Counted from the first letter of the stretch, positions 16,124 through 20,142 are shown. The stretch is DNA of 64,000 nucleotides from an uncultured Mycoplasmatota bacterium (GCA_913062645.1 CAJXVW010000002.1:1-64000); one strand, 5' to 3'. Program-made: numbers and translations. The notes: a model not told the origin generated them from the sequence alone.

Positions 16124-17215
16124 TTATTCCGTCAAAGCGTCGATGAGTTCGGCTTTGCGCAGTTTCGAATAGCCGGTCATGCCGCGTTCCTTGGCCATCT
16201 CCTTGAGTTCGGGGACGGTCAGGCTTGCGAGATCGACAGCGGGCTGTTCTTGCGTCGGAGCTTCCGGTTTCGGTTCTTCTTTGGCTTTCGGTTCTACTTT
16301 GGCTTTCGGTTCTACTTTGGCTTTCGCCTTAGGTTCTTCTTTCACTTCCGGTTTCGGCTCGGCTTTCGGCTTCGGTGCTTCCTTGGCCTTGGGCTCGGGC
16401 TTGACTTCCGGTTTGGTTTCTTTGCGTTCTTTGCGCTCTTTGCGTTCCGGCTTGTCGGTGCGTTGTTCCGAGCGGCGCGGTTTGCGTTCCGGACGTTCCT
16501 GCTTGGTGCTGTCGTCTTCGTCGGCGCTGATGTCGCCGCCGGCGGCGACCACGAATGCATCCAGCAGTTTGGAGGCGATCAGTTTGATCGAACGAATCGC
16601 GTCGTCGTTGCCCGGGATGATGACATCAACCAGATCGGGATCGCAGTTGGTGTCGACGATGCCGAAGACGGGGATGCCGAGTTTCTTCGCTTCTAGGACG
16701 GCGTTTTTCTCATGGATCGGATCCACGACGAACACGGCCTGGGGCAGGGTGCGCATGTCTTTGATGCCGGAGAGGAACTTCTCGAGACGATCGATTTCCT
16801 TCTTCAGCACGATGACTTCTTTTTTGGTCAGACGATCGAAGGTGCCGTCTTGTTCCATGCGGTTGAGGTCATGGAGCTTGCGGATGCTTTTGCGGATCGT
16901 CTTGAAGTTGGTCAGGGTTCCGCCCAGCCAGCGCTGTGTGACATAGAATTGTCCTGCGCGGACGGCTTCCGCCTTGATGACGTCGCGGGCTTGTTTCTTG
17001 GTTCCGACGACGAGGATTTTGCCACCGTCGTTGGCGACGGCAAGCAGTTTCTGATAGGCTTCTTCCAGCATCACGACCGTTTTTTGCAGGTCGACGATGT
17101 GGATTCCACCGCGTGACGTGTAGATGTACTGGTCCATTTTCGGATTCCATCTGCGCGTCTGGTGACCGAAATGTACTCCGGCCTCAAGCAGTTGTTTCAT
17201 TGAGACTACGCTCAT
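16124..17215 (-). CDS. rpsB: 30S ribosomal protein S2 with C-terminal Rho_N-like extension
   Basis: The start at 17215 ([13 protein letters not shown]) was chosen because AGGAGG lies 9 nt upstream. The open frame before it covers the leader. Residues 1 to about 232 are ordinary S2 ([48 protein letters not shown]). A long charged Lys/Glu/Pro tail follows (about 235-325) with repeats such as KVEPKAK. The last 36 residues (328-363, [15 protein letters not shown] ... [11 protein letters not shown]) resemble the Rho N-terminal/SAP-like nucleic-acid-binding fold. At 363 aa it is about 110 longer than usual S2. The tail may touch RNA or DNA; no function is proven. Confidence 0.95.
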
Positions 17216-17330
17216 GTGGTGATTCCTCCTTTTTGATTGTGCCTCCACTACCTTCGTCGCATCCGGCCACCGCGTTTGTTCGCGGCTCGTGACCGTCTGC
17301 TCGGGCGTGTGTGTATTTTTACGGCTTTTA
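17216..17330 (-). promoter_or_regulatory. rpsB 5' leader
   Basis: An untranslated leader of about 110 nt lies between the rpsB promoter and start. It can fold a GC-rich hairpin (CCGCG ... CGCGG, flanked by GGTCAC/GTGGCC) shortly before the ribosome binding site. Ribosomal-protein leaders often bind their own product, so S2 autoregulation is possible, but this is inference. Confidence 0.4.
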
Positions 17331-17331
17331 T

Positions 17332-17360
17332 ATTGTATCAAATGCGTTGGATTAAATCAA
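17332..17360 (-). promoter_or_regulatory. promoter of rpsB
   Basis: -35 TTGATT (17360-17355), a 17-bp spacer and -10 TACAAT (17337-17332), with the TG extension giving TGATACAAT. Confidence 0.8.
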
Positions 17361-17389: not shown

Positions 17390-17412
17390 AAAAAAAAGAC
17401 CAGGACGGTCTT
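17390..17412 (-). terminator. intrinsic terminator of the B12 operon
   Basis: AAGACCgtccTGGTCTT with a run of eight T on the minus strand, 9 nt after the stop of the ECF S-component gene. Confidence 0.88.
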
Positions 17413-17421
17413 GATTTTGGA

Positions 17422-17949
17422 TTATTTGTAGCTTTTGGCAGGAGTGAGGACGCCGCTTTCGAGCGTTCTCACGAGGGTTTTGCGAAGCGGTTGGAACAGG
17501 TAGTTGACGGTCACGAATCCGGTTACCGCCATGGTGATTTCCCACATGATGTCGGCCGACAGATAGACCCACATGTTGTCGATGCCGGTTTGGATCATGT
17601 TGAACGGCAGGAAGCTCCAGCCGTACACGAACCCGAACACGAACGCCGCGAAGGCGAGCGTCATTTCATTGGTGGTGCGACGCAGCACGGTGTGGTAGGC
17701 AAACGGGATGAGACTCCACGCGAACAGCATCGGAATCATGTAGAACAAGTTGAAACCGCCCATGTACAGGTTGTCGAGCAACACGTAGCCGATGATGTAG
17801 ACGAGGCTTTCTTTGTAGGTGAAGACACTGACGAACACGAACATCAGAAGCACCGTCAACTGGATGTTCGGCAACAGCAAAAACATCTGTTCTTGAACAA
17901 ATGTGACAGCGATCGCCACGGCGATCATCATGAGACGTCTGGTGGTCAT
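17422..17949 (-). CDS. ECF transporter S-component, probably for cobalamin
   Basis: This 175-aa integral membrane protein has about six helices, the size and layout of an ECF (energy-coupling factor) substrate-binding S-component. These proteins bind a vitamin and dock on a shared EcfA-A'-T motor. No Ecf ATPase genes are nearby, as is usual when the motor is shared. It is third in an operon headed by a cobalamin riboswitch and behind two DUF4430 proteins, so cobalamin or a corrinoid is the likely substrate. That assignment comes from context, not from a recognised family motif. The start overlaps the previous stop by 4 bp. Confidence 0.75.
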   Translation of the reverse strand: MTTRRLMMIAVAIAVTFVQEQMFLLLPNIQLTVLLMFVFVSVFTYKESLVYIIGYVLLDNLYMGGFNLFYMIPMLFAWSLIPFAYHTVLRRTTNEMTLAFAAFVFGFVYGWSFLPFNMIQTGIDNMWVYLSADIMWEITMAVTGFVTVNYLFQPLRKTLVRTLESGVLTPAKSYK

Positions 17950-18371
17950 TCGAATGCCCCCTCTACTACTTCGTGTTGAAAGCGATAGACCGCTCCGTCT
18001 TCGAGCGGAATGTCGCTGATTCCGTAACTGCTGTATTCGTCATTGACGTAGATGGCGATGTAGGTGTTCTGCCAGTCGGTCTCTATGCCGTCGATGGTGA
18101 GAATGACGTGTTCCATCAACACCGAATCCTGACAGGTCGTCGGTTGGTACTGCATGTCCGCACACTGAATCGTGTAATGCTCGGACAGAATGTCGAACAG
18201 GGTATCGTCTACCTCAAAGTCGTGGGTTTGCGAGCTGATGGTGTCGCCGAGCTGGTCGACGAGGACGATCGTGATCGTCCCGTGATCGTCGCCTTGCCGC
18301 AAGTAGTCGCTGATGAAAAAACTGATTGCGGCGATCCCCACCACAGCAAGTGTGATGAACAGTTTTTTCAT
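17946..18371 (-). CDS. membrane-anchored DUF4430 protein
   Basis: A 141-aa protein with an N-terminal signal or anchor helix (3-20, no lipobox Cys). It is followed by one DUF4430 domain (about 32-135), recognisable by TLFDILSEHY, ILTIDGIETDW, YIAIYVNDEYSSYGI and LEDGAVYRFQHE. DUF4430 is homologous to the C-terminal beta domain of transcobalamin and intrinsic factor. AAGGAG precedes the ATG, and it overlaps the S-component gene by 4 bp. It probably sits outside the membrane and may hand cobalamin to the S-component. This role is inferred from the riboswitch and neighbours. Confidence 0.8.
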   Translation of the reverse strand: MKKLFITLAVVGIAAISFFISDYLRQGDDHGTITIVLVDQLGDTISSQTHDFEVDDTLFDILSEHYTIQCADMQYQPTTCQDSVLMEHVILTIDGIETDWQNTYIAIYVNDEYSSYGISDIPLEDGAVYRFQHEVVEGAFE

Positions 18372-18382
18372 CTGTGAACTCC

Positions 18383-19810
18383 TTATTCCGGTCGAATCGG
18401 CTGTGCGTCGAACGGATTGGTGTAGGTGTCGTCGTTGGCGTGTTTGTAATATGTCGCAAGCGCCAGAAAGGCTTGCGGGGTGCTGAACATCGGATCATCG
18501 AACGTGGCGTCGGTAAGATCCCAGTCGAAGGTGCCGATGTCGGTCTGGAACTCACTCAGGCGCAACACGAGATTGGTCGTGGTATCGCCGTTTGTGACGG
18601 TGAAGTCGTCACCGGCGGGGTCGATGCCGTTGGCGATCAAACCAAGCACGACCATGGCCAGACTGGCGGCATTTTCACTGGTTCCCCAACCCATGTCGCG
18701 GGTGGCGATGCCACCGGTGGCGAGTTGGTCGGTTTGAATCCATTCGACGTAGTCGTCGATGAGATCCTGAATGCCGGGCTGTCCGGCGTAACGGGCGAGG
18801 GCGACGAGACTGATGCCGCCACTGTCGAGACCAAGATCATAGGGCGTTGTCGTCGTCAAATCGGCAAGCGCCGCCGTGACGTACGCGCTGTAATCAACTT
18901 CGTGATGATAGCTGTCGAGCGCCAGCAGTCCGTAGGCGGTCTGGCCGTACGGTCCGGTGGCCACGATCTGGCTGAGGTCGGTCACAAGATCAAGAATGAT
19001 GGCATCGTCGTACCCGACGGCATGCATGATCATGATTGCCTTGAAATAGGCTTGCACCGTATCGGGCGCCATGGCTCCGACATAGTCGTTGATCAGTTGC
19101 ATGTCATTGACGATTCGTTCATAGACCGGATGGCCGTCGCACAGACTCTGACATCCAAGCAGTACGTTGTAATCGATGTAGTCTTCGTTCAGATAATTGG
19201 CAAGCTGGTTGTCGATGAAGCGGTGCAGCGCTTCGAAGACGGCTTGTTCGGTGGCATCGTACCACTCGACCTGGAAGGTGAACAAGTCACCATCGGCATA
19301 GGTCGCATCGTCGATGCCGACCGTCGACATCGTGCCATTCTTGTAGAAGGCGAGATACGAGCCGAAGGGTACTTCGAAGTCTTCGATGCCGGTGAGGAAA
19401 TGTCCGTATTCGGACGTGGTATAGGTCAGATCATAGACGTCCTCGGCGATGTCGAACAAACTCAGTTCGTCGGCTTCGTCGACGCCCATGGTGCGGTACA
19501 CGGTGTTGCCGAAGAGATCGGTCGCCTCAAACGTCAGGACCATGTCATAGGTCGCAGCCTGGAGCGCTTCGATCTGATCCTGCAGGTCGGCGATTTCCTC
19601 GTGCAGGTCGATGATGATGCCGTTTTTGGTATCCAGTTCGTCTTCGGTTTCGGCTTGCGTTTCCATGATGTCGATCATTTCCTCTTGCAAAAAGAGGACT
19701 TGTTCCTGCAACGTCTCGATCTGAGCGCGCAGTTCGTCTTTGTCTTCGGTACAACCGACGAGCACCAGCGTCAGTGCCAGCAGCAATACCACAGAGAACA
19801 GTTTTTTCAT
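18383..19810 (-). CDS. transcobalamin-like lipoprotein: coiled coil, DUF4430, alpha barrel
   Basis: A 475-aa lipoprotein with signal peptide and lipobox LVLVGC (Cys20). A long coiled coil (about 23-86, heptads such as LRAQIETLQEQVLFLQEEM) forms a stalk. Residues about 90-190 are a DUF4430 domain (SLFDIAEDVYDL, FLTGIEDFEVPFGSYLAFY, GIDDATYADGDLFTF). Residues about 195-470 form a repeated-helix barrel of the prenyltransferase/transcobalamin alpha-domain type (GPYGQTAYGLLALDSY, GWGTSENAASLAMVVLGLIA, TPQAFLALATYY). Animal transcobalamin has the same two domains in the opposite order. It is the first gene after a cobalamin riboswitch. It probably captures cobalamin at the cell surface; this is inference. 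Confidence 0.82.
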   Translation of the reverse strand: MKKLFSVVLLLALTLVLVGCTEDKDELRAQIETLQEQVLFLQEEMIDIMETQAETEDELDTKNGIIIDLHEEIADLQDQIEALQAATYDMVLTFEATDLFGNTVYRTMGVDEADELSLFDIAEDVYDLTYTTSEYGHFLTGIEDFEVPFGSYLAFYKNGTMSTVGIDDATYADGDLFTFQVEWYDATEQAVFEALHRFIDNQLANYLNEDYIDYNVLLGCQSLCDGHPVYERIVNDMQLINDYVGAMAPDTVQAYFKAIMIMHAVGYDDAIILDLVTDLSQIVATGPYGQTAYGLLALDSYHHEVDYSAYVTAALADLTTTTPYDLGLDSGGISLVALARYAGQPGIQDLIDDYVEWIQTDQLATGGIATRDMGWGTSENAASLAMVVLGLIANGIDPAGDDFTVTNGDTTTNLVLRLSEFQTDIGTFDWDLTDATFDDPMFSTPQAFLALATYYKHANDDTYTNPFDAQPIRPE

Positions 19811-19839
19811 TGCGAGTATCCTTTCGTGTTGTGAGGTAA

Positions 19840-19863
19840 GAAAAAAACCATCCTCCTGGATGA
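19840..19863 (-). terminator. riboswitch expression-platform terminator
   Basis: CATCC/GGATG stem followed by seven T on the minus strand, between the cobalamin aptamer and the lipoprotein start. It is the likely off-state terminator. Confidence 0.8.
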
Positions 19864-19917
19864 TTTACGTTCGGGTGCCAAAGGCGAAAAAACGTCCACT
19901 CAGCACGGTAAACGTAA

Positions 19918-20110
19918 CGACTCATTTCCCAGGAGCATTACACTTCGATGTCCAGGTAGGTCTACCGGCTTAACTTCGTCCTACTATGCACCTTCCCGCG
20001 CGGTGTGCGCAGTGGTTGTTGCAGTTCGTCCATATTACGGTTGCTGGGACAGCCTGAGAGTCTCACTCAATTCCCTGTTATGTCTATGTTGACACCTAGC
20101 ATCTACTACC
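19918..20110 (-). promoter_or_regulatory. cobalamin riboswitch
   Basis: The minus strand carries the conserved cobalamin aptamer segments in order. These are AGGTG near the 5' end, AGGGAATTGAGTGAGACTCTC, GTCCCAGCAACCGTAAT, GCGGGAAGGTGCA and GAAGTTAAGCCGGTAGACCTACCTGG. The terminal helix pairs GATG.CTAGGTG with ACCTACCTGGACATC. An intrinsic terminator follows, so ligand binding most likely stops transcription of the three-gene operon. Exact ends are approximate. Confidence 0.93.
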
Positions 20111-20114
20111 ATTG

Positions 20115-20142
20115 TATCACTTGACCACTTATTGTCAATACT
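20115..20142 (-). promoter_or_regulatory. promoter of the B12 operon
   Basis: TTGACA (near 20138-20133), a 16-bp spacer and TACAAT, with the TG extension (TGATACAAT). The -35 lies in a short palindrome TATTGTCAATA, directly downstream of dut. Confidence 0.8.

Follow-up and report, generated by a model that had tools for sequence, protein, structure and literature searches.

The window analysed here, a stretch of 64,000 nucleotides, comes from the 1.99-Mb genome of a marine, mycoplasma-related member of the Izemoplasmataceae, whose named relatives place it in Candidatus Izemoplasma/Izimaplasma. On its minus strand lies an operon in which a candidate promoter, a cobalamin riboswitch and a terminator are followed by the genes for a lipoprotein, a small DUF4430 protein and an S-component, then by a further terminator and rpsB. 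The features, in window coordinates, are the following:

20111-20138, minus strand: candidate sigma-70 promoter, TTGACA-16-TACAAT with TG before the -10 element (consensus scan, 11/12 positions)
19938-20113, minus strand: cobalamin riboswitch aptamer RF00174 (cmscan, 88.3 bits, E 1.8e-20)
19892-19915, minus strand: expression-platform hairpin, a candidate alternative (antiterminator-side) structure (pattern scan)
19845-19866, minus strand: intrinsic terminator of the riboswitch expression platform (9-bp hairpin and T-run)
18383-19810, minus strand: lipoprotein gene, 475 aa, with lipobox, coiled-coil stalk, DUF4430 and alpha/alpha barrel (ORF, PF14478, model)
19256-19549, minus strand: DUF4430, or transcobalamin-type SLBB, domain of the lipoprotein, about aa 88-185 (PF14478, Foldseek)
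18386-19255, minus strand: alpha/alpha toroid (barrel) domain of the lipoprotein, about aa 186-475 (model, VIA-align, Foldseek)
17946-18371, minus strand: small membrane-anchored DUF4430 protein, 141 aa (PF14478, profile-profile match)
17422-17949, minus strand: predicted CbrT-family ECF S-component, 175 aa (profile match, model, Foldseek, VIA-align)
17396-17412, minus strand: operon-end terminator before rpsB (7-bp hairpin and T-run)

The start of the S-component gene overlaps the stop of the small DUF4430 gene. The initial annotation had described a three-gene operon spanning 17946-20110; the three genes stand, yet the span has to be extended, as the S-component gene is a member of the operon and falls outside it. 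The neighbouring rpsB (16127-17341, minus strand) encodes a ribosomal protein S2 whose C-terminus carries a long extension rich in Lys, Pro and Glu, with a Rho_N domain (PF07498, E 1.9e-9) at its end. PADLOC returned no match and NCBIfam only matches below cut-off, and single-sequence searches of the PDB with the three operon proteins yielded nothing useful, while profiles and structural models did work.

The riboswitch match covers a full-length aptamer (model positions 1-189), lies far above the gathering threshold of 31.5 bits and is the sole RF00174 match in the host genome, with the candidate promoter sitting immediately 5' of it. A terminator hairpin with a T-run is found behind the riboswitch at 29/29 loci (that of the window and 28 others) compared with 6/580 shuffled controls, which bears out the cobalamin riboswitch with terminator proposed earlier.

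The 175-aa protein is predicted to span the membrane with six helices. As a single sequence it has no Pfam match, and a sequence search came back equally empty, but a profile built from 61 relatives, 11 of which match the S-component family PF12822, has one significant match in the PDB, 6fnp_A (CbrT; E 5.9e-8, profile positions 3-172 on chain positions 6-179). The structural model (pLDDT 91.5) points the same way: the top 12 Foldseek rows are all S-components, and VIA-align superposes it on 4huq_S with Z 14.8 and an rmsd of 2.8 over 159 residues. The protein, already annotated as an ECF S-component, can thus be assigned with some precision, as a probable member of the CbrT family. The entry 6FNP represents ECF-CbrT of Lactobacillus delbrueckii, a transporter proven to bind and transport both cobalamin and cobinamide, which in reconstituted form works without any extracellular binding protein (PMC5997447). 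The CbrT profile match thus gives the operon a link to B12 that does not rest on the riboswitch.

The small DUF4430 protein conforms to its description as a stand-alone membrane protein, with a PF14478 match above the Pfam cut-off (E 7.5e-8) and a single N-terminal hydrophobic helix; it has no lipobox Cys. Its DUF4430 and that of the lipoprotein are homologous in a profile-profile comparison (probability 99.2, E 1.4e-19), and it may likewise bind corrinoids. Its profile found no relevant match in the PDB; one to alkanal monooxygenase (E 0.0015), made up of scattered fragments, was rejected as off-target.

The lipoprotein carries a lipobox (LVGC) and a coiled coil, followed by the DUF4430 beta-domain and then the toroid. 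Its DUF4430 exceeds the Pfam cut-off (PF14478, E 1.4e-6) and, in a confident model of residues 81-475 (pLDDT 91, pTM 0.90), resembles both a Ruminococcus DUF4430 structure (3u7z, Foldseek TM(target) 0.88) and the beta-domain of human transcobalamin with cyanocobalamin (5np4, TM(target) 0.77, rmsd 2.3). The barrel domain has no Pfam match. Structurally it ranks best against squalene-hopene cyclases, glycoside hydrolases and complement TED domains (VIA-align Z 17-20 against the toroids of squalene-hopene cyclase, GH105 and complement TED). Foldseek rows for the lipoprotein do include transcobalamin and intrinsic factor at TM(query) of about 0.39-0.43, but the best Z ranks go to generic toroids, and neither of the two animal proteins occurs among the best 50 VIA-align rows, an absence from which nothing follows. 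PF01122 matches neither the lipoprotein of the window nor any of 38 relatives at E 0.01, and the lipoprotein profile reaches bovine transcobalamin II only at E 1.3. The toroid thus seems to be a generic alpha/alpha toroid, transcobalamin-like at the level of fold only, and its model resembles squalene cyclases and complement TED domains no less than transcobalamin. The earlier claim that the lipoprotein unites both domain types of animal transcobalamin consequently holds for the DUF4430 and, for the barrel, at fold level; when the predicted structure is set against human transcobalamin, the beta-domain is matched, the toroid is retrieved together with generic toroids that take the best Z ranks, and the order of the domains is reversed. 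Binding of corrinoids by the lipoprotein would fit its beta-domain, and the coiled coil could serve as a stalk from which a captured corrinoid is handed over.

The arrangement is widely conserved. Lipoprotein searches in 101 genomes gave matches in 61, and at 29 loci of other genomes (L003-L031) RF00174 lies upstream of the lipoprotein gene without exception; on every contig of sufficient length the riboswitch is followed by the lipoprotein, small DUF4430 and S-component genes in this order, and in most cases then by rpsB. A scan with the S-component yielded 66 loci from named genomes, and 20 further regions were examined. Nearly all loci with a match have the small DUF4430 gene immediately before the S-component gene, usually behind a riboswitch match, and this pair (L032-L107) occurs in Izemoplasmatales, Acholeplasmataceae, Inordinaticella and Anaeroplasma/rumen Bacilli. 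The first gene varies, encoding DUF4430 plus barrel, the barrel alone or up to three DUF4430 repeats, or being absent. The constant core consists of the riboswitch, the small DUF4430 gene and the S-component gene, and the barrel lipoprotein is a variable outer part; several riboswitch operons lack it or have repeated DUF4430s in its place, so that the core does not depend on it.

A survey of the phylum for DUF4430 found the domain in 61/392 genomes. A CbrT-like S-component gene adjoins the DUF4430 gene in 17 of the 30 loci examined and follows dedicated EcfT and ATPase genes in three more, and several of the surveyed loci lie behind RF00174 or RF01482. DUF4430 is also present in Lactococcus lactis, and the domain alone is therefore no proof of a role in B12 uptake. 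At three loci (L159, L160 and L161) the system appears to come complete with its own ECF module: a DUF4430 gene is followed by genes for an EcfT-like protein, a long ABC ATPase and a CbrT-like S-component, and L160 and L161 have RF01482 riboswitches. Adenosyltransferases are encoded in some variant operons (PF01923 in L098, L116 and L164; CobA, PF02572, in L163). In L098, L114 and L116 the first gene behind the cobalamin riboswitch encodes a divergent PduO-type adenosyltransferase (PF01923, 36-48 bits), followed in L098 and L116 by a divergent DUF4430 and S-component pair. L154 and L157 have a MetH-like gene immediately upstream.

The host has evident uses for B12. Its genome encodes an adenosylcobalamin-dependent NrdJ (591 bits), a PduO-type adenosyltransferase and four proteins with a B12-binding domain, three of which, on inspection of their sequences, look like glutamate mutase S, lysine 5,6-aminomutase and an ornithine aminomutase-like protein, while the fourth looks radical-SAM-like. 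NrdJ or a B12-binding-domain protein is present in 78/78 genomes with the riboswitch as against 12/23 without it (Fisher p 9e-9, uncorrected for relatedness), and one family of seven genomes is devoid of the riboswitch, the lipoprotein, NrdJ, B12-binding domains (PF02310) and the adenosyltransferase altogether. An EcfT is encoded in the host genome outside the operon. The operon holds no BtuF, BtuC or BtuD gene, and the host genome no strong BtuC, in keeping with the earlier remark that neither a BtuF-type protein nor BtuCD is part of the system; the best FecCD match in the host (39.9 bits, over part of the profile) was not accepted as BtuC, given full-length matches of up to 316 bits in relatives. 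A few relatives (G012, G029, G096) have a riboswitch-controlled BtuFCD alongside the transcobalamin-like operon. At three loci of relatives (L113, L115, L117) a separate cobalamin riboswitch drives BtuFCD and then CobQ- and CbiB-like genes; the transcobalamin-like operon is present in these genomes too.

The idea of such a system is not new. Burroughs, Balaji, Iyer and Aravind (2007) described a secreted, transcobalamin-like SLBB clade in Gram-positive bacteria. Its SLBB domain is fused to a toroid, which may precede or follow it, and a second secreted paralogue is often present; the operons include CbiQ/CbiO-like transporter genes, and most of the genomes lack B12 synthesis. The authors predicted B12 scavenging, allowed for other ligands too, and proposed a transfer to animals (PMC1796856). 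The system therefore cannot be called undescribed, as the initial annotation had suggested. The locus described here shares with theirs the DUF4430-type SLBB and toroid, the second SLBB paralogue, a transporter gene alongside and a lack of B12-synthesis genes (here CbiC), but CbiQ/CbiO genes are part of their operons, whereas the present genome has its ECF module at another place. Riboswitches, S-components and Mollicutes are each mentioned zero times in that paper (PMC1796856), and what is new relative to the 2007 prediction is the riboswitch link, the CbrT identity and the taxon. We found no experimental test of such a system in the open-access literature, beyond which further work may exist. 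The present operon provides much stronger, though still computational, support for the system then predicted, of which it is a well-supported member.

Other known systems resemble the operon in part. ECF-CbrT of L. delbrueckii has an S-component of the same family and B12 context genes such as nrdJ and pduO, but its published transport proceeds without an extracellular partner, whereas the present operon also encodes two DUF4430 proteins. Animal transcobalamin, intrinsic factor and haptocorrin likewise combine a DUF4430/SLBB beta-domain with an alpha/alpha toroid in one secreted protein; they differ in having the toroid first, and the bacterial protein is a membrane lipoprotein without PF01122 whose toroid is alike at fold level. 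BtuG, BtuH and DUF4465 (BtuJ) of Bacteroides are also riboswitch-linked lipoproteins that catch B12 for a transporter (PMC6143338, PMC8941943, PMC13398666), but they are built on a beta-propeller, a C-terminal BtuH domain and a jelly roll, respectively, and belong to Gram-negative outer-membrane systems with BtuB. BtuFCD, which also imports B12 and has its own riboswitch in the three relatives mentioned above, uses a different binding protein and permease.

Uptake of B12 or another corrinoid by the operon is very likely, and its interpretation as a riboswitch-controlled corrinoid uptake operon has strong backing in its conservation, in the match to CbrT and in the use of B12 by the genomes. 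With a probability of roughly 85%, we read it as an operon for the acquisition of corrinoids (vitamin B12), switched off when cobamide suffices, in which the lipoprotein would capture the corrinoid, the small DUF4430 protein would relay it and the CbrT-type S-component would import it. At low intracellular cobalamin, the riboswitch would avoid the terminator and the three proteins would be made. The lipoprotein, on its coiled-coil stalk, would use its DUF4430 beta-domain and the toroid mouth to catch corrinoids, much as transcobalamin does; the membrane-anchored DUF4430 protein, beside the S-component, may receive or position the corrinoid; and the S-component, together with the shared ECF motor (whose EcfT is encoded elsewhere), would carry it through the membrane. 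Inside the cell, the PduO-type enzyme would adenosylate the cobalamin, which could then be used by NrdJ and the B12-dependent aminomutases.

The main substrate might be a corrinoid other than cobalamin, for instance cobinamide or a cobamide finished or remodelled inside the cell. CbrT accepts cobinamide as well (PMC5997447), cobalamin riboswitches are reported to be broadly sensitive to corrinoids (PMC9600662), and CobQ/CbiB-type salvage genes stand in another riboswitch operon of three related genomes. We consider this somewhat unlikely, as the operon of the window has no salvage genes of its own; in the host genome the check covered CbiC, which is absent. It is rather improbable that the corrinoid is bound by the CbrT-like S-component alone, with the lipoprotein and the small DUF4430 protein serving another purpose, such as attachment to a carrier protein, to a polysaccharide or to the ECF complex: the generic toroid, the variable or missing barrel lipoprotein and the capacity of CbrT with its ECF module to transport cobalamin unaided (PMC5997447) would suit such a division, but the small DUF4430 gene immediately precedes the S-component gene in nearly every operon examined, and DUF4430 corresponds in fold to the beta-domain with which transcobalamin binds B12. 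Import of cobalt, whose transporters are controlled by cobalamin riboswitches in other bacteria (PMC3766115), can be set aside as highly improbable, since the S-component profile matches CbrT and not CbiM, and since CbiC is absent from 101/101 genomes, so that no de novo corrin synthesis is evident for cobalt to feed.

Within the favoured reading, corrinoid acquisition by way of the lipoprotein, the small DUF4430 protein and the S-component, we tentatively envisage a 'split transcobalamin' relay: the lipoprotein might hold the corrinoid between its DUF4430 and toroid, and the small DUF4430 protein might then replace one of these halves and dock the corrinoid onto the S-component. If so, an ECF transporter would receive its substrate through a chain of dedicated extracellular receptors, a feature not known from the proven CbrT system, and it would become possible to test directly whether animal B12 carriers are of bacterial origin, as has been proposed. 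ECF S-components are generally taken to work without a partner outside the cell, and extracellular B12 capture by Gram-positive or Mollicutes-like bacteria without BtuCDF is poorly known; a conserved receptor pair before a CbrT-type S-component would change the former view.

A further, very strong cobalamin riboswitch of a related genome (G029:C7:19903-20101, locus L112; 121 bits) precedes two YitT-family-like membrane genes, the first of which was confirmed to contain PF02588 and DUF2179. These genes possibly represent an unrecognised link to corrinoid or cobalt transport.
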